Of a DNA stretch of 38,177 nucleotides, positions 7,806 through 27,422 are shown piece by piece; the first letter of the stretch is position 1; every line of letters starts with the position of its first letter. Both the position numbers and the translations under genes were made by a program. The notes below the pieces were generated by a model. The model saw only the letters and a list, made by a program, of their open reading frames with translations. It did not search any database and had not been told where the DNA came from. Source of the DNA: Chloroflexota bacterium (GTDB taxonomy: Bacteria > Chloroflexota > Anaerolineae > Anaerolineales > Villigracilaceae); NCBI GenBank assembly GCA_016865985.1, contig VGNO01000005.1, forward strand, positions 1-38,177, written 5' to 3'.

Positions 7806-10541
7806 TTACTCCCCGCTCCCCATCATCTCCAGGAAGGCCCTCGCCACCTGCGGATCGAACTGCTTCCCGCTCTCGGCCTGGATGTATTCGAGCGTCTTTT
7901 CCTTCGTCCAGGCTTGGCGGTAGGGCCGGTCGGAGGTCAGGGCGTCGTAGACATCCACGATGGCAAAGATGCGCGCCGCCGGCGGGATCTGTTCCCCTTT
8001 CAGGCCGCGCGGGTAACCGGAGCCGTCCCATTTTTCGTGATGGCAGTAGGGGATGTCCAACGCCGGGCGCAGGTACCTGACCTGGGAGAGCATATCGTAA
8101 GCGAACTGGGGATGGCGGCTCATCACCTCCCATTCCTCGTCAGTTAACTTACCCGGCTTGAGCAGGATGGCGTCCGGCACGCCCATCTTGCCCATGTCGT
8201 GCAGCAGCGCCCCGCGCCGGATGGGAACCAGTTGTTCTTCGCTCATGCCCATCCGGCGCGCCAGGCCGACGGTCAGGTCGGTGACGCGTTTCGTATGGCC
8301 TTCGGTCTCCTTGTCGCGCAGGTCCATGGCCAGCGACCAGCCTTCGATGGTATTGTCGTAGGCCATCACCAGGTCCAGGTTGGCGCGGGTCAAGCCTTCG
8401 AAAAGGGAGGCATTATCCACGGCGATGGCGACCTGCCCGGCCAGGATCTGGAGGAAGTTCAGCCATTCGTCGTCCACCGGGCGGTGGGCGCGCAGGAAGA
8501 CCTCCAGCACGCCCTTGACCTGTCCTTTTGTGATGAGAGGTACGCCGTGGTAGCAGGTGAATCCCTCGCCGGCCAGCAGGCCGCTACGTGCGAAGCCTGC
8601 GGTATCGCTTTGCAGGTCGTAGACGCTGACCGGGATCCGCTCGAGGGCGGCGCGCCCGGCGTGGCCCTCGCCCAGGCGCAGGCGCGAGCGTTCGATGGTT
8701 TTTTCGCGGAAGCCGCGCCCGGCGGCATATTCCAGCGCCTGGGTGTGCGGATCGAGCAGCAATACGGCGGCGGCTTCCGCTTCCATTTGTTCGATAACTT
8801 GTTGGAGCGAAAGGTCCAGCGTCAATTGCAGGTCGAAACTTCCGCTGATGGCCTGGTCGATGGCGTGCAGGGCCTCGATGTGCTGCAGGCGGCGCAGGGT
8901 CTCGGCTTCCGCCTGCTTGCGCCCGGTGATTTCCTGGGAAAGGATGAGAATACCTTCCGGGATGGGCTGGATGCTCAGTTCGAACCAGCCATGAGAGCCA
9001 TCTGGATAGATGAACTCGTTTTCCAGATGCTGTACCAGGCGTTCCTTCATGCAACATTCCAGGGCGGCAAAGAGGGGGGTCTTTTCGATGCCCGGATACA
9101 TCTCCATCATGGTGTGTCCCAGCAGTTCTTCCTTTTCTCTTTGCCCGTGCCGCGCGGCGATATCATTCAGGTAGAGATAGCGCCAGTCGGGCCCGATGAT
9201 CTGGACTCCCTCCAGCATGTTGTCCAGCGTCGAGCGGTAACGCTGCTCGGCAAGTTTCTGTTCACTGATATCGCGCATCATACCAAAGAGCGCCTCCCCT
9301 TCGCGCCAGGCGCTCAGGAGCACGGAACACGGCTGCCCGTCCCGCCGCAGCAATTCCACCTCGAAGTTCCTGACCTGTTTCTCCCGTTGCAGGATCTCCA
9401 GCAAGTGGACGCGGTCCTGCGGATCCTTGTACCGGTCCATGACCTTCGTCCCGACCAGTTCGGAGGCTGAATCGAAGCCGAGGATGCGCGCCAGTTCCTG
9501 GTTGGCAAAGAGGATGGCGCCCTCCAGGCTGGTCTGGTAGACGCCGGTCAGGGCGTTCTCCACCAGGGTGCGGTAGCGGTTTTCGGAAACGCCCAGGGCG
9601 GTCGTCCGTTCGACGACCTGTTCTGCCAGGACGCGGTTGGCATCCTGTAATTGGGTCTCCATCGGCGAAAGCAACCGGATGGTTTTCCAGGTGAAGAGGG
9701 CGAAGAGGCAGGTGAACAGCACGCTGCGGATGGCGTTCATCGTGTCCGCGCCATAGAGATTTGCCCGCTGGCCGGCCAGCGCCAGGAGGTCCAGCGCAAA
9801 GGGGATCACGAAGGTGGCGAGCAACAAGCGGCGGGCCGTTATACCGGCGATCCCGCCTCCCAGAAAGGCGGCGGTCAATTCCCAGTCGGGCCGCGCCAAA
9901 AAAACCCCGACGAACATCAAGGCGAAACCGGCCATCGTATGCAAAGCCATGGTCGTGAATTGGGCGATGCCCCCATAAAAAGGGGTGACATCATGGATAT
10001 ACCCGGCCAGGGCCAGGATGATGACCAGGCCTTCCCCGAGCATCAGGACCTGCGCCGGGTGGAAGCCGCGCCTGGTCTTCAGGTCCAGCAGGCAAAATGT
10101 CAGCCCGAGCAGCAGGAAACTCAAGGCTGTGTTGGGCGCCATCCGGCCGGGGTAGGTCGTCTGTACTGCGCCGGCCGCTTCATCGAACAATAACTGGTCG
10201 ATGCCCAGGTCCCAGTGGAAGGCGTACTCTGCCAGGGTGAGCAGGCCGAGCAGTGAGACGAGCCCGGCGCAAGCCTGGCCCGCCAACCGCGCCCACTTAC
10301 CGCCGGTCCGGGTGGGCCGCGAGAGCAGCAAAAGGGCCAGGCCGCTGAGGATAAAGGCGGCGGCTGTGTTGGCTTTCATGGTCACAAAGCCCGGCAGGAC
10401 ACTCTTCAAGAGCGGGATGTCCAATGCCCAGCCGGCCAGCGCCAAGACCCCCAGCAGGCAAGCCAGGACGGATGCCATCCAGGAGATGGTCTTGCTCCGC
10501 GCCATCAGGCGGTCTTCGTTCGACGATGGATGGTCAGCCAT
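7806..10541 (-). CDS. Membrane PAS-PAS-GAF-HD-GYP c-di-GMP phosphodiesterase
   Basis: This 911-residue protein probably degrades cyclic di-GMP in response to a membrane or cytoplasmic signal. The first 290 or so residues hold about seven to eight hydrophobic membrane segments. Two PAS domains (about 320-560), a GAF domain (about 575-725) and a C-terminal HD-GYP domain (about 735-905) follow. The HD-GYP signatures are intact: LLHDMGKMGVPD, HHEKWDGSGYP and DVYDALTSDRPYR. The ATG at 10541 is preceded by AAGGAG at 8 bases spacing, so the upstream ATG/TTG options are rejected. It is the last gene of the long minus-strand signalling run, 81 bases after cpaF. Its HD-GYP domain closely resembles that of the REC-HD-GYP protein at 12290-13288, so the two are paralogs. 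The substrate is inferred from the family. Confidence 0.92.
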   Translation of the reverse strand: MADHPSSNEDRLMARSKTISWMASVLACLLGVLALAGWALDIPLLKSVLPGFVTMKANTAAAFILSGLALLLLSRPTRTGGKWARLAGQACAGLVSLLGLLTLAEYAFHWDLGIDQLLFDEAAGAVQTTYPGRMAPNTALSFLLLGLTFCLLDLKTRRGFHPAQVLMLGEGLVIILALAGYIHDVTPFYGGIAQFTTMALHTMAGFALMFVGVFLARPDWELTAAFLGGGIAGITARRLLLATFVIPFALDLLALAGQRANLYGADTMNAIRSVLFTCLFALFTWKTIRLLSPMETQLQDANRVLAEQVVERTTALGVSENRYRTLVENALTGVYQTSLEGAILFANQELARILGFDSASELVGTKVMDRYKDPQDRVHLLEILQREKQVRNFEVELLRRDGQPCSVLLSAWREGEALFGMMRDISEQKLAEQRYRSTLDNMLEGVQIIGPDWRYLYLNDIAARHGQREKEELLGHTMMEMYPGIEKTPLFAALECCMKERLVQHLENEFIYPDGSHGWFELSIQPIPEGILILSQEITGRKQAEAETLRRLQHIEALHAIDQAISGSFDLQLTLDLSLQQVIEQMEAEAAAVLLLDPHTQALEYAAGRGFREKTIERSRLRLGEGHAGRAALERIPVSVYDLQSDTAGFARSGLLAGEGFTCYHGVPLITKGQVKGVLEVFLRAHRPVDDEWLNFLQILAGQVAIAVDNASLFEGLTRANLDLVMAYDNTIEGWSLAMDLRDKETEGHTKRVTDLTVGLARRMGMSEEQLVPIRRGALLHDMGKMGVPDAILLKPGKLTDEEWEVMSRHPQFAYDMLSQVRYLRPALDIPYCHHEKWDGSGYPRGLKGEQIPPAARIFAIVDVYDALTSDRPYRQAWTKEKTLEYIQAESGKQFDPQVARAFLEMMGSGE

Positions 10542-10622
10542 GGGTGGCGCTCCTTGCATCCACATTCGAATGCAGGATCAGATACCATGAGCGATATTGA
10601 TTGCTGCGGGTCGGCTCCATTC

Positions 10623-11936
10623 CTACCTCCGTCGGTTGCGCTCCATCACATCGGCAATGCTGGCGCCGAAGACTTCCGGCCCCAGTTTGAAGCCGGCCAC
10701 TTCCAGGCGCGGCCCGAAGAGCGGGCGGATGCCGGTCGGTTTGAGTTCGCCGAGGGCCTTGCCGTCGGCGTCCACGCCGGTCTGTTCGTACTTGAAGATG
10801 TCGGTCAGCACGACCGTATCGCCTTCCATCCCGGCCACTTCGGTGATGGCGGTCACTTTGCGTGAGCCGTCCTTGAGGCGCGTCTGCTGGACGATGATAT
10901 CCACCGCCGAGGCGATCTGCTGGCGGATGACCTTGACCGGCAGGTCCATCCCGGCCATCATCACCAGCGTCTCGAGGCGCGAGATGGCGTCGCGCGGCGA
11001 GTTGGCGTGGACGGTGGTCAGCGAACCGTCGTGGCCGGTGTTCATCGCCTGGAGCATGTCGAGCGCCTCTCCGCCCCGGCACTCGCCGACCACGATCCTA
11101 TCCGGGCGCATGCGGAGCGAGTTGCGCACCAGGTCGCGGATGGTCACCTCGCCGCTGCCGTCCAGGTTGGGGGTCTTGGTCTCCAGCCGGACGATGTGTT
11201 CCTGCTGGAGTTGGAGTTCGGCGGCGTCTTCGATGGTCACGATGCGCTCGTTATCCGGGATGAAACCGGAGAGGACGTTGAGCAGGGTGGTCTTGCCGGA
11301 ACCGGCGCCGCCCGAGATCACCACGTTCAGCCGCCCGACGACGCAGGCGCGCAGGAATTCGGCCATGCGGACGGTCATCGACTCGTACTGGACCAGGTCG
11401 TCCATCCGCAACTTGTCCTTGCGGAACTTGCGGATGGTGATGGACGGCCCGTCGATGGCGACCGGGAAGATGACGGCGTTGACCCGCGAGCCGTCCGGCA
11501 GGCGGGCATCCACGGTCGGGCTGTCGGCGTCCACCCGCCGGCCGAGCGGCAGGATGATGCGTTCGATGACCCGCACCACGTGTTCGTTGCCGTCGAAGGC
11601 GACCTTGGCCCGTTCCAGGCGGCCTTTCTTTTCCACATAGACCTTCTGCGGCCCGTTGACCATGATCTCGCTCACTTCCGGGTCGTCCAGCAGGGGCTGG
11701 ATCGGGCCGTAACCGGCCACCTCGTCCAGGACGGTTGCGAACAGGCGCTGGCGCAGTTCGTCCGGCAGGTTCAGGCGGGTCTGGTTGTAGGCTTCCTGCA
11801 ACCTGGCAGCCAGCGCCTGGCGCCTCTTTTCAGGGCCGGCAGCCACCAGGTCGGCCGCCGCCACCTGCTCGGTCAGGTAGTTGCGCAACTTGGCCAGGTC
11901 CGGGCCCGAGATGCCCGGCTGGGAGGCGGCGCTCAT
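10623..11936 (-). CDS. cpaF: CpaF/TadA-type secretion ATPase
   Basis: This 437-residue protein is a hexameric ATPase of the type that powers Flp/Tad pilus assembly. The Walker A motif GGAGSGKTT is at 209-217, the Walker B region RIVVGECRGGEA at 280-291, and the His box GHDGSLTTVHAN at 301-312. The N-terminal domain of the family (about 1-185) is complete. Its ATG overlaps the stop of the preceding small gene as ATGA, so the pair is translationally coupled. No tadB, tadC, prepilin or peptidase genes are nearby, so it is an orphan here. It stands among c-di-GMP enzymes, which suggests control of a pilus encoded elsewhere, or a non-pilus role. Confidence 0.93.
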   Translation of the reverse strand: MSAASQPGISGPDLAKLRNYLTEQVAAADLVAAGPEKRRQALAARLQEAYNQTRLNLPDELRQRLFATVLDEVAGYGPIQPLLDDPEVSEIMVNGPQKVYVEKKGRLERAKVAFDGNEHVVRVIERIILPLGRRVDADSPTVDARLPDGSRVNAVIFPVAIDGPSITIRKFRKDKLRMDDLVQYESMTVRMAEFLRACVVGRLNVVISGGAGSGKTTLLNVLSGFIPDNERIVTIEDAAELQLQQEHIVRLETKTPNLDGSGEVTIRDLVRNSLRMRPDRIVVGECRGGEALDMLQAMNTGHDGSLTTVHANSPRDAISRLETLVMMAGMDLPVKVIRQQIASAVDIIVQQTRLKDGSRKVTAITEVAGMEGDTVVLTDIFKYEQTGVDADGKALGELKPTGIRPLFGPRLEVAGFKLGPEVFGASIADVMERNRRR

Positions 11937-12229
11937 GCGGCCCCTGCCTGGTGGATATCGGCCAGGGCGGCGACCCACACCACCTGGTCGCGCCGGATGG
12001 CGATGAAGTCGGAGCGGAAGAGCGGCCGCCCGTCCGGCTCGCAGATGGTGGCGTCGGTGACGGCCAGGAACGGTTCCGGGGCGTCGAGTTCGTCCTTCAG
12101 GCGGTTGTCGCGCCGGATGTGCAGGCGGCCTTCGACCAGGTTGGTCGCGGTGCGGATGCGCGCCGGCAGGTCCGATTTGGAGACGACCGGGGTGAAGATC
12201 TTTCCTTTTTCATCGAATTCGAGGGTCAT
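11933..12229 (-). CDS. Conserved small protein coupled to CpaF
   Basis: This 98-residue soluble protein has no recognisable catalytic motif. Its sequence suggests a small beta-rich fold with a charged middle (HIRRDNRLKDEL) and a hydrophobic end (DQVVWVAAL). A GGAGG ribosome binding site stands 5 bases before the ATG, and its TGA overlaps the ATG of cpaF. That coupling suggests it works with the ATPase, for example as a regulator or adaptor. I cannot name the family with confidence, and the functional link is inferred from the gene overlap alone. Confidence 0.75.
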   Translation of the reverse strand: MTLEFDEKGKIFTPVVSKSDLPARIRTATNLVEGRLHIRRDNRLKDELDAPEPFLAVTDATICEPDGRPLFRSDFIAIRRDQVVWVAALADIHQAGAA

Positions 12230-12289: not shown

Positions 12290-13288
12290 TCAGTCCGCGT
12301 CCAGTTCGATGAGCGCCAGGAACTTCTCCACGATGGACGGGTCGAAGCGCTGGCCGGCGTTGGCGCGGATGTAATCGAGCGCCTCCTCGGTCACCCAGGC
12401 CGATTTGTAGGGGCGCTCGCTCAGCAGGGCGTCCCAGACATCGGCGATGGCAAAGCAGCGCGCCGCCAGCGGGATCTCCTCCCCCTGCAGGCCGAGCGGG
12501 TATCCGCCGCCGTCCCAGCGTTCATGGTGGTGGTAGGGGATCTCCAGCGCCGGGCGCAGGTATTCGATGGACGAGAGCCACTCGTGGGCATAGATCGGGT
12601 GCAGGCGCATGATGCGCCATTCGGCCTCGCTCAGTTTCCCTTCGTTGAGCAGGATCGAGTCGGGGATGGCCATCTTGCCGATATCGTGCAGCAGCGCCCC
12701 GCGCCGGATGTGGACGAGCGCCTCGCCTGCGATGCCGACCGACCGCGCCAGGCGCAGGGTCATTTCGGTCACGCGCTGGGTGTGGCCTTCGGTCTCCTTG
12801 TCGCGGATGTCGAGCGCCCGCACCCAGCCTTCGATGGTGGTGTCGTAGGTCTTCTGCAACTCGAAATAGGCTTTTTCGATGCGGGCGTGTTCGTCGCGCA
12901 GTTTGCGGTAGCGGTTGAGGCGCAGGATGGTGCGCACCCGCACCCGCATCTCGGTGCGGTCGAAGGGCTTCGAGATGAAATCGTCCACGCCGGCTTCGAT
13001 GCCGCGCAGGCGCGACTCGCGGTCGTCGAGGGCCGAGATCATGATGATCGGCGCCTCGGCCAGCGCCGGGTCGGCGCGCAGCCGGTCGCAGACCTCGTAC
13101 CCGTCCATGCCGGGCATCATCACATCCAGCAGGACCAGGTCCGGTTGGAGTTGGCGCGCCAGGTCCAGCCCTTCCGTCCCGTTGCTGGCGAAGACCAGCC
13201 GGTAGCCCTGGTCCAGCAGCAGCGATTCGATCGATTTCTGGGCCGAGGCTTCATCGTCGATGATGAGGATGGTTCCAACGATTTCCAT
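12290..13288 (-). CDS. Response regulator with HD-GYP output (c-di-GMP phosphodiesterase)
   Basis: This 332-residue protein couples a receiver domain to cyclic di-GMP breakdown. The receiver is at 1-120, with phospho-acceptor D55, acidic pair D11-D12 and K107. The HD-GYP domain (about 150-325) has HD at 201-202 and HHERWDGGGYP at 254-264. I give the ATG at 13288. A TTG two codons earlier (13294) has better spacing from AAGGAG and may be the true start. It lies 19 bases after the NarL-type regulator gene, so it is probably in the same operon as the kinases. Its receiver and linker are strikingly like those of the REC-histidine kinase at 13988-15064. The likely phosphodonor is one of the neighbouring kinases (inferred). 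Confidence 0.93.
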   Translation of the reverse strand: MEIVGTILIIDDEASAQKSIESLLLDQGYRLVFASNGTEGLDLARQLQPDLVLLDVMMPGMDGYEVCDRLRADPALAEAPIIMISALDDRESRLRGIEAGVDDFISKPFDRTEMRVRVRTILRLNRYRKLRDEHARIEKAYFELQKTYDTTIEGWVRALDIRDKETEGHTQRVTEMTLRLARSVGIAGEALVHIRRGALLHDIGKMAIPDSILLNEGKLSEAEWRIMRLHPIYAHEWLSSIEYLRPALEIPYHHHERWDGGGYPLGLQGEEIPLAARCFAIADVWDALLSERPYKSAWVTEEALDYIRANAGQRFDPSIVEKFLALIELDAD

Positions 13289-13307
13289 GATCAAACAAGG
13301 CTCCTTG

Positions 13308-24569: not shown

Positions 24570-26042
24570 CTAATTGCCGGCTGCCGGCTGGGAGGCAGTG
24601 ACGGGCTGCGGGACGGGCAGGTGGATAACCTGTCCCGGGGTGAGGGTCGTCCCGCCGGTCATCGGGTTGGCCGCCAGCAGGCTGGCCGGGGAGATCTTCC
24701 AATCGAAGGCGATCGTCTCGACCGTGTCGCCCCAGCGGACGGTGTAATCCTGCGGCAGGCCGTTGATGTGATATGTGACCCAGTCCCAGCGCATGATATC
24801 GAAACCGGTTGTACCGGTCTTCCCATACCCGCCGCCGTTCCATTCAGTATTGATGACGCCGCTCTTGCGGTCGCCCGGGGTGTAGAGGGCGACTTCGCTG
24901 ATGGAGCAGTTTGTGGAATTCTTGATCATGTTGGAGATAGTGAAGCGCGTCTGGTTGGCGTCGATCCCGGTCACCATGAAGATATGGTCATAGAGGCCGT
25001 CGTCCGGGATCTCATACAGGGTGGCAAAGGAGTAGATGACATCACCGGGATAGAGGTTGCCGTATGCCGCAAAGTCATAGCCTGGCATGGCCGCATCGGT
25101 GCGGATCAGGGTATAAGTATCGGGGTCGAACGTCCCCCACGGCTGGCCGTTCCAGCGTGGGTTAGCGCCGGTGAAGGCCCTGGCGCTGGCCGACCAGGAG
25201 CCGATGCGGTAGGGGAAGCCGTTGGCGTCGCGCAGGATCGTCCAGGCCAGCGGACCGCACATGGACGAGGCGCTCGGGTAACCGATCTCCTCCTTTGCGA
25301 CCCGGTTGGCTTCGGCGCAGTCGGCGGCCAGGTACTGCCGCCCGGCGGCCAGGAAATCGGGCGCCTGCCAGTCGAGGTCGAACATGGCGGCTACCGCCTC
25401 GCGGCTGGTATACCCCTGTTCGATCATCCAGTGGCAGGGCAGTTTCTTGATCACCGGATAGATGGTTGCGTCGCCTGGGGTCCCGTCCTTTTGCCAGTAG
25501 GCGCGGGCGTAACCGGCCCAGTCCGATTCGAAGACGCCGGGCGCCAGCGGGACGGCCAGCAGGCGGAAGTTGCCGCCGTAGGCCCGGAACCAGACGGCGA
25601 AGCCCTGGGTCAGGAAGATGGTCGCCACCCGGTCGCCGCGGTAGGTAAGCGGGTGCTGGAATTCGTTGAAGATGAATTCATAGGCATAGCGTTCCTGGCG
25701 CACATTCACGGTCTGTTGCAGTTCCCCGTTCCAGATCGAATAGGCCCGCCGCTCGTCCAGGTTGTATTCGCCCCCGAGCGCCGCCCGGACATTGGCCAGC
25801 ATCTCCTCCGGCGTCGATGCCGTTGCGGTGGCGGCTGCGCAACCGGCCGGGTTGCCGTAGGGGTAGGCCGGGGCGGGAGCCGCATCGGATTCGAGACCGA
25901 TCGTCTCCTGTCCCCAGGCCTGCATGGGGGCATCCACCCGGCGCGCCAGGGATTCAGCCGGGCGGGTGGCGGTGTATTCCCCGGTGGCGGCGACCGAGAA
26001 GAGGATGATCATGGAAAGGGCGGCGAGCATGGTTTTGTGCAT
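24570..26042 (-). CDS. Secreted LysM protein with a possible cysteine-peptidase fold
   Basis: This 490-residue exported protein has an N-terminal signal peptide (about 1-21). A large middle domain is followed by a C-terminal LysM domain (about 432-477) that would anchor it to peptidoglycan or another glycan. The middle region contains C262 in SSMCGPLAW, then YPGDVIYS (331-338) and H353 in YDHIFMVTG. This Cys, PGDVI, His order resembles CHAP or NlpC/P60-like peptidases, but the similarity is by eye and the catalytic claim is tentative. The ATG at 26042 has AGGAG upstream. The 5' leader carries a cyclic-di-GMP-I riboswitch and a terminator, so expression should follow c-di-GMP level. It likely acts on the cell envelope or matrix during a motile-sessile switch (inferred). 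Confidence 0.88.
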   Translation of the reverse strand: MHKTMLAALSMIILFSVAATGEYTATRPAESLARRVDAPMQAWGQETIGLESDAAPAPAYPYGNPAGCAAATATASTPEEMLANVRAALGGEYNLDERRAYSIWNGELQQTVNVRQERYAYEFIFNEFQHPLTYRGDRVATIFLTQGFAVWFRAYGGNFRLLAVPLAPGVFESDWAGYARAYWQKDGTPGDATIYPVIKKLPCHWMIEQGYTSREAVAAMFDLDWQAPDFLAAGRQYLAADCAEANRVAKEEIGYPSASSMCGPLAWTILRDANGFPYRIGSWSASARAFTGANPRWNGQPWGTFDPDTYTLIRTDAAMPGYDFAAYGNLYPGDVIYSFATLYEIPDDGLYDHIFMVTGIDANQTRFTISNMIKNSTNCSISEVALYTPGDRKSGVINTEWNGGGYGKTGTTGFDIMRWDWVTYHINGLPQDYTVRWGDTVETIAFDWKISPASLLAANPMTGGTTLTPGQVIHLPVPQPVTASQPAAGN

Positions 26043-26063
26043 TGCGTCTCACTCTCCTGCCGG

Positions 26064-26102
26064 AAAAACGAAAGGCCTGGTTTTGGGCAACCAAGCCTTT
26101 CG
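26064..26102 (-). terminator. Intrinsic terminator in the riboswitch expression platform
   Basis: The transcript can form a 14-bp hairpin: CGAAAGGC plus UUGGUU pairs with AACCAG plus GCCUUUCG around the loop GCCCAA, and U5 follows (26068-26064). It lies between the c-di-GMP aptamer and the LysM start codon, where only a regulated terminator makes sense. Confidence 0.88.
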
Positions 26103-26170
26103 AATATCCATGAGTGTGGACGCGCATGGAAGGACCATGCGGGCGCGCCGGTGGGCGCAGTTTTCATGTG

Positions 26171-26270
26171 TGACGTTCGGCGGCTTGGCGATCGTGGGCG
26201 CCTTGGCGCCTGTAGACCCGTAGCTTTGCGTCCCTGCCTTTCGACAGGTTTGCCTTTATCGGTGTCGAAA
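26171..26270 (-). ncRNA. Cyclic-di-GMP-I (GEMM-I) riboswitch
   Basis: The minus-strand RNA shows the class hallmarks in order. AUAAAGGCAAACC leads into stem CCUGUC (26248-26243), GAAA tetraloop (26242-26239) and stem GGCAGG (26238-26233). The invariant GACGCAAAGC follows (26232-26223), then a second arm capped by GGCGC-CAAG-GCGCC (26210-26197), and a closing GAUCGCC-AAGCCGCCGAA segment. UUCG (26269-26266) can pair with CGAA (26179-26176) as part of P1. A terminator lies 70 bases downstream, so it should work by transcription attenuation. Whether c-di-GMP turns the LysM gene on or off cannot be decided without folding the alternative antiterminator. Confidence 0.92.
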
Positions 26271-26409
26271 CCTTGCGGTCTGACTCTCCTTGGAAGTAAG
26301 GTTCAGGATTACGATATCAGGATACTGCAATCCCCGCCGGGAGGCTATTCGCCGCCCTACCTATTTCGACCTGCGGGGAAATACGTAGGGATTCCAGTTG
26401 CGGGACGGG

Positions 26410-26415
26410 TATAAT
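26410..26415 (+). promoter_or_regulatory. -10 box of the methyltransferase gene (leaderless)
   Basis: A perfect TATAAT ends 8 bases before the ATG at 26424, so transcription would start at or next to the start codon. No ribosome binding site is present and no good -35 box is seen at the usual distance. Confidence 0.6.
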
Positions 26416-26423
26416 CCGCCGCG

Positions 26424-27422
26424 ATGGACGAAGCCTCCCTGACCCGCCGCCTGTCCGCCGCGCTGGAAGCCCGCTCCAGCCTGTTCGACGACCGCCGCCA
26501 GGCCGCCTTCCGCCTCTTCAACGGCTTCACCGAGGGCTGCCCGGGGCTGACGGCCGACCTGTATGGCGCGACCCTGCTGCTCCAGGAGCATTGCGCCGGC
26601 CAGGGCGAGGGGGAGCGGCTGGCATCCCTGGCGCAGGCCTTCTACCTGGGACAACTGCCCTGGCTGCGGGCGGCCCTGTTCAAGAGCCGCAGCGGCGGGA
26701 CGGAAGCCGCCCGGCGCGGCCGGCTGGTGCATGGTCACGCCCCGGACCGGCAGGTGCGGGAGCACGGCGTCTCGTACGCCCTCGACCTGTCCCTCAACCG
26801 GGATGCCAGCCTGTACCTCGATACCCGCAACCTGCGCCGCTGGGCCATCGAACGCCTGGCCGGTAAGACCGTCCTGAATACCTTCGCCTACACCGGCAGC
26901 CTGGGTGTGGCCGCCCTGGCCGGCGGCGCCAGCCGGGTGGTGCACCTCGACCTGAACCGCGCCTTCCTCGACCTGGCAAAGGCTTCCTATGGCCTGAACG
27001 GATTCCCGGTGGACAAAGGGGATTTCCTGGCCGGGGATTTCTTCCCGCTCGCCGGCCGCCTCAAACGCCGGGGGGCGCGTTTCGATTGCGTCTTCCTCGA
27101 CCCGCCATTTTTCTCATCCACTTCGAAAGGCAGCCTCGACCTGGCCACCGACAGCGTCCGGCTGGTCAACAAAGTCCGCCCGCTGGCGGCGGACGGCGGC
27201 TGGATCGCGGCGGTCAACAATGCCGTCTACCTGGGCGGGCGGGAGTACTTTGCCTCACTGGATGCATTGTGCGGCGATGGATACCTCGAGATCGAAAGCC
27301 TCATCCCGGTCCCGCCCGATTTCACCGGTTTCCCGGAGACGACAGAAGGCGTCCCCATCACCGACCCGGCGCCGTTCAACCACTCGACCAAGATTGCCAT
27401 CCTGCGGGTGCGGCGCAAATAA
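26424..27422 (+). CDS. Class I SAM-dependent rRNA methyltransferase (RlmI-like)
   Basis: This 332-residue enzyme resembles the RlmI/RlmL group that methylates rRNA cytosine or guanine bases. The Rossmann-fold SAM site is at about 149-170 (VLNTFAYTGSLGVAALAGG), the acidic turn VVHLDLN at 172-178, and the catalytic-type motif FLDPPFF at 224-230. The N-terminal part is shorter than in RlmI and I cannot confirm a complete PUA domain. The ATG is preceded directly by a TATAAT box and no Shine-Dalgarno, consistent with a leaderless mRNA. It diverges from the riboswitch-controlled gene. The exact target base cannot be told from the sequence. Confidence 0.85.
   Translation: MDEASLTRRLSAALEARSSLFDDRRQAAFRLFNGFTEGCPGLTADLYGATLLLQEHCAGQGEGERLASLAQAFYLGQLPWLRAALFKSRSGGTEAARRGRLVHGHAPDRQVREHGVSYALDLSLNRDASLYLDTRNLRRWAIERLAGKTVLNTFAYTGSLGVAALAGGASRVVHLDLNRAFLDLAKASYGLNGFPVDKGDFLAGDFFPLAGRLKRRGARFDCVFLDPPFFSSTSKGSLDLATDSVRLVNKVRPLAADGGWIAAVNNAVYLGGREYFASLDALCGDGYLEIESLIPVPPDFTGFPETTEGVPITDPAPFNHSTKIAILRVRRK

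Follow-up and report, generated by a model that had tools for sequence, protein, structure and literature searches.

A c-di-GMP-I riboswitch with a conserved putative antiterminator pairing, predicted to control the gene of a probably exported LysM protein in an Anaerolineae-type bacterium

The class I c-di-GMP switches of C. difficile have been reported to act as OFF switches, the one preceding zmpI/PPEP-1 included (PMC6200980, PMC11477304, PMC6366702), and in Bacillota tandem c-di-GMP-I switches precede genes for COG1305 transglutaminase-like putative cysteine proteases (PMC12452182). Here, we describe a locus of this general kind in the window, by which we mean the whole 38,177-nucleotide stretch of Chloroflexota DNA that was analysed. 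Using Infernal, we find a c-di-GMP-I (GEMM-I) aptamer at 26176-26264 on the minus strand, with a score of 76.2 bits (E 4e-15) against RF01051 and a match that runs over model positions 1-87, the full length of the model. The c-di-GMP-I-GGC model, RF03167, matches the same aptamer at 26175-26263 (minus strand) with 67.3 bits, so that the feature as a whole occupies 26175-26264; the scores exceed the respective gathering cut-offs of 35 and 59 bits. An earlier note made from the letters of this DNA had read a c-di-GMP-I aptamer here and had suggested the RF01051 search, and its reading holds: the match is on the minus strand and full length, the motifs GGCAAACC (26247-26254), GAAA (26239-26242) and GACGCAAAGC (within 26223-26234) are all located, and the interval that it gave, 26064-26270, correctly covers both the aptamer and the terminator described below. 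In Vc2 numbering, which places G20 at 26254 and A47 at 26227, the ligand-contact bases A18, G20, and A47 are all canonical, and the aptamer is predicted to bind c-di-GMP. It is the sole c-di-GMP-I match in the 3.2-Mb assembly; a search of the assembly for c-di-GMP-II aptamers gave 0 matches, as it did in the control genomes of the same search.

The aptamer lies in the 5' leader of a LysM gene and is followed by an expression platform. The stem at 26069-26102 (minus strand) comprises 14 pairs, one of them G.U, around a loop of 6, with a 5' arm at 26089-26102 (CGAAAGGCTTGGTT), a 3' arm at 26069-26082 (AACCAGGCCTTTCG), and a U5 tract at 26064-26068 (T5 in the DNA), in agreement with the 14-bp hairpin and U5 that had been noticed ahead of the start codon. 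The fold of 26064-26101 reaches -22.0 kcal/mol with a z of -5.3, and 0 of 200 shuffles folded equally well. This intrinsic terminator precedes a probable ribosome-binding site, AGGAG (26054-26058), and an ATG start codon (26042, minus strand). A promoter scan of 26000-26460 returned no sigma-70-like site. Separately, we observe two near-identical stretches, AGGAGAGTCAGACCGCAA on the 5' side of the aptamer (26273-26290) and AGGAGAGTGAGACGCAA on the 5' side of the start codon (26042-26058), which may be a matter of chance. Taken as a whole, we consider it probable that this is a canonical c-di-GMP-I riboswitch that works in the OFF direction by transcription attenuation, with a product that is most likely an exported, LysM-held, papain-like enzyme. 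The entire analysis is computational, and what we say on ligand binding, on the direction of control, on export, on enzyme activity, and on the control of the LysM gene by c-di-GMP is predicted.

The gene at 24570-26042 (minus strand) encodes a 490-residue protein with a hydrophobic N-terminus that is likely a signal peptide, a Cys/His/Asn domain at about residues 230-425, and a LysM domain (PF01476) at residues 433-476, which scores 30.7 bits against a cut-off of 20.9 (E 3e-7). The view that the product is an exported LysM protein is thus supported, and the possible Cys-His core of the earlier note is borne out by conservation, as C262 (in a CGPL motif), D334, H353, and N371 are invariant across 24 diverse homologues down to 22% identity. 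The corresponding minus-strand codons lie at 25257-25259 for Cys262, the proposed nucleophile, at 24984-24986 for His353, and at 24930-24932 for Asn371, and the conserved order Cys, His, Asn is that of the Amidase_6/CHAP hydrolases. When compared with Pfam and NCBIfam, the window protein gave no family above cut-off except LysM, with neither Amidase_6 nor CHAP matched, and a profile search of the PDB matched the LysM part alone. Several homologues show weak Amidase_6/CHAP matches, one of which (in L044) reaches the Amidase_6 cut-off, at 23.4 versus 23.2 bits. The invariant Cys/His/Asn residues, the weak matches in the relatives, and the C-terminal LysM domain together suggest that the product is likely an exported papain-like peptidoglycan hydrolase held on the wall by LysM. 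A LysM surface protein with a structural or adhesive role and an inactive papain-like domain would also suit a sequence with no Pfam or NCBIfam family beyond LysM and a poor AlphaFold2 model (mean pLDDT 41, built from four sequences), but we judge this reading unlikely, given that all four residues are invariant among such diverse homologues and that the domain is fused to another, Beta-lactamase2, which follows it in L037, L068, and L069. One distant LysM/Cys-domain homologue (L087:922-2553, in G494) carries an N-terminal stretch, SHGGGGAVD...HIH, that is reminiscent of zinc DD-peptidases (M15); the stretch has no Pfam match, and its residues are absent from the full-length family.

Homologous loci were collected from class-wide and family-wide protein searches and from named contigs. 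There are 12 full-length loci including the window, the others sharing about 53-65% identity across the part that matched, and homologues in G271 (33%) and G494 (30%) are further removed; viral contigs contained no relative. An aptamer lies upstream of the gene at 8 of the 12 full-length loci, namely the window, G407 (identified by position as MAG contig JANJTV010000100.1), G372, G327, G500, G534, G527, and G541, and since G372, G500, and G534 have tandem pairs and the window a single copy, the aptamers total 11. No aptamer is present at the loci of G522 and G508 or at either copy in G478 (MAG bin-243), and at these four loci not even a degenerate one was detected at E 5. In one of the bin-243 copies (L063:19-1641), a transposase-like open reading frame ends about 100 bases 5' of the LysM start codon. 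We also mapped riboswitch presence on a tree of 13 homologues, the backbone of which is weak and does not separate one gain from several losses. The distal aptamer of the G372 pair (L083:3311-3400) differs from the other 10 in having A at position 20 (AATAGCAAACC) and G at position 43. A change of such a kind in the binding pocket has been linked with c-AMP-GMP sensing (PMC9481103); the G372 pair may read two signals, or its distal copy may be decaying.

The comparison of these leaders points to the step at which the switch would act. In the window, the 3' strand of the aptamer (GCCAAGCC, 26182-26189, minus strand) can form 8 pairs, one of them G.U, with 26090-26097 (GGCTTGGT) in the 5' arm of the terminator, and this predicted antiterminator strand covaries in the homologues. 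Complementarity between the aptamer 3' strand and a downstream arm, usually the terminator 5' arm, is found in all 11 aptamer units, with compensating changes that give CCAAGCC/GGCTTGG in the window and in each distal unit (G500, G534, and G372), CCAGGCC/GGCCTGG in G327, and GGTCTGG as the partner in G407; the pairing contains bulges in the proximal units and in G541 and is CCAGA/TCTGG in G527. The units pair better with their own partners than with permuted ones (p about 1e-4 in a permutation test on 9 distinct units, which are related and not independent), and each arm outperforms random genomic 11- or 12-mers as a partner (p 0-0.005, with 0.005 for the 11-mer of the window), these position-specific and permutation p values being optimistic because the arms were picked with the pairing in view. 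An unbiased test of whole-leader complementarity against dinucleotide shuffles gives p values of 0.001-0.33, most single units yielding a weak signal, and in the G500 and G534 proximal units the best partner that it finds lies in another downstream stretch. When partial transcripts truncated ahead of the 3' arm are folded, each unit shows the 5' arm base-paired to the aptamer strand, mostly at 0.6-0.9 per base, with the G534 proximal unit rising from 0.2; in the window the mean probability is 0.70-0.72 per arm base, and the complete leader folds into the terminator. By computed pairing, then, the leader has both a terminator and a mutually exclusive antiterminator drawn from the aptamer. The platform differs in G527 and G541, the two units where a U-run terminator is unclear. 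The G541 unit (L085:3056-3144 and the leader after it) has an arm that can also pair with AAGGCG just 5' of the start codon; by its fold, and with no clear U-run, control in this unit may act on translation.

According to the mechanism that we propose, at low c-di-GMP the aptamer 3' strand GCCAAGCC would pair with GGCTTGGT in the emerging 5' arm, which would block the terminator and allow the LysM protein to be made. With c-di-GMP bound, the 3' strand would be held in the aptamer, the terminator would form, and transcription would stop before the start codon. The predicted OFF direction follows from the fact that the conserved pairing uses the aptamer's own 3' strand, which a bound aptamer cannot supply. 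The same point bears on the opposite arrangement, an ON switch in which the ligand favours read-through. Some c-di-GMP-I switches have been predicted or seen to be ON, for example in Desulfobacca (PMC9481103), and CD630_19900 of C. difficile rises with c-di-GMP (PMC6200980), but as the sole conserved alternative pairing that we found is a predicted antiterminator that ligand binding should block, we regard ON control of this gene as improbable. Loss of the response, with aptamer and terminator merely persisting, might be expected of a single copy in the genome and of a family in which 4 homologous loci have no aptamer, but it is very unlikely in view of the ligand-contact positions and the antiterminator pairing, kept with compensating changes over 8 loci.

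The subclass of the aptamer was considered separately, as cmscan ranks RF03167 first in its clan. It does so because the E-value of that model is lower, while the RF01051 score is 9 bits higher. The name GGC presumably denotes G20/G47/C92; the RF03167 consensus is GGGACGCGAA and the window reads GGGACGCAAA, so that the model has G where the window has A at the A47 equivalent, and A is likewise found there in the remaining 10 of 10 aptamers of the homologous loci. We therefore file the aptamer as canonical c-di-GMP-I and have dropped the GGC label, since A47 is retained and 76.2 bits for RF01051 exceed 67.3 bits for RF03167; the top label of Rfam is probably wrong here. A GGC variant with altered ligand specificity, favoured by the E-value ranking and opposed by both the scores and the A47 position, is very unlikely.

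The surroundings of the gene include proteins that may act on the signal itself. On the same strand as the LysM gene (minus), the window encodes a response regulator with an HD-GYP (HD_5) domain at 12290-13294 (PF13487, 2e-38) and a PAS/GAF protein with HD-GYP at 7806-10565 (PF13487, 1e-38), both probable c-di-GMP phosphodiesterases, as well as multi-sensor histidine kinases and response regulators. A gene for a T2SSE/CpaF-like secretion ATPase (10623-11978) lies between the two HD-GYP genes. Genome-wide, there are 10 GGDEF and 7 HD_5 matches, which indicates that c-di-GMP turnover is encoded, with synthesis via GGDEF; two of the seven HD_5 matches fall in this 38-kb contig, where 0.08 would be expected (P about 0.003). 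Genes for sensor kinases, response regulators, or c-di-GMP enzymes are also near the LysM gene at 9 of 10 other loci, with HD-GYP motifs in the neighbourhoods in G407, G500, and G534 and GGDEF motifs in those in G527 and G478. We treat this link as a lead because such genes may be common in such genomes. It is conceivable, though doubtful, that a conserved local circuit operates in Anaerolineae, in which a sensor-kinase/response-regulator cluster with HD-GYP phosphodiesterases lowers c-di-GMP and the riboswitch close by releases an undescribed family of LysM-anchored, papain-like hydrolases of the cell wall, in which case the hydrolase would perhaps serve dispersal or filament separation.

Our literature search returned no paper that joins a c-di-GMP riboswitch with a LysM protein, in line with the earlier view that the target appears undescribed, and, for Chloroflexi and c-di-GMP riboswitches, none on c-di-GMP signalling in Anaerolineae by title or abstract; such signalling seems to have received little study in these bacteria. 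Thus, the riboswitch belongs to a known class, and its LysM target gene appears undescribed. The locus offers a single gene on which the output of c-di-GMP can be tested in an uncultured bacterium of the Anaerolineae type, through the only c-di-GMP-I aptamer found in its genome, and it suggests that the product under control is a secreted protein, probably one active on the cell wall. With an OFF switch, the enzyme would be made as c-di-GMP falls, for example in cells leaving a sessile state. Among 30 high-scoring class-wide aptamer loci, many downstream proteins start like secreted ones as judged by eye, and this locus would add a case to the pattern of secreted enzymes that act at the surface and are under class I switches.

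Set beside known systems, the locus has precedents for its riboswitch class, for its platform, and for a target of this kind, and it is the target family that looks new by comparison with the literature. The Amidase_6 (PF12671) and CHAP (PF05257) families share the Cys-His-Asn order and, in several homologues, similarity in the His/Asn region, whereas the window protein matches neither and L044 alone passes the Amidase_6 threshold. The COG1305 loci of Bacillota share c-di-GMP-I control, often tandem, of a putative cysteine protease, but they belong to a different phylum and protein family, and the window aptamer is single. The zmpI/PPEP-1 (Cdi-1-12) and flgB (Cd1) switches of C. difficile share the class I aptamer, and that of zmpI/PPEP-1 also acts in the OFF direction, as ours is predicted to do, on the gene of a secreted enzyme that works at the surface; the product there is a zinc metalloprotease of adhesins, whereas ours is a LysM protein whose Cys/His/Asn core is papain-like, and no homology is claimed. 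Finally, the locus has in common with RF01051 riboswitches at large the full-length match, the canonical bases of the binding site, and a terminator platform ahead of the gene; the aptamer is an ordinary one, and what is new is the gene that it precedes.
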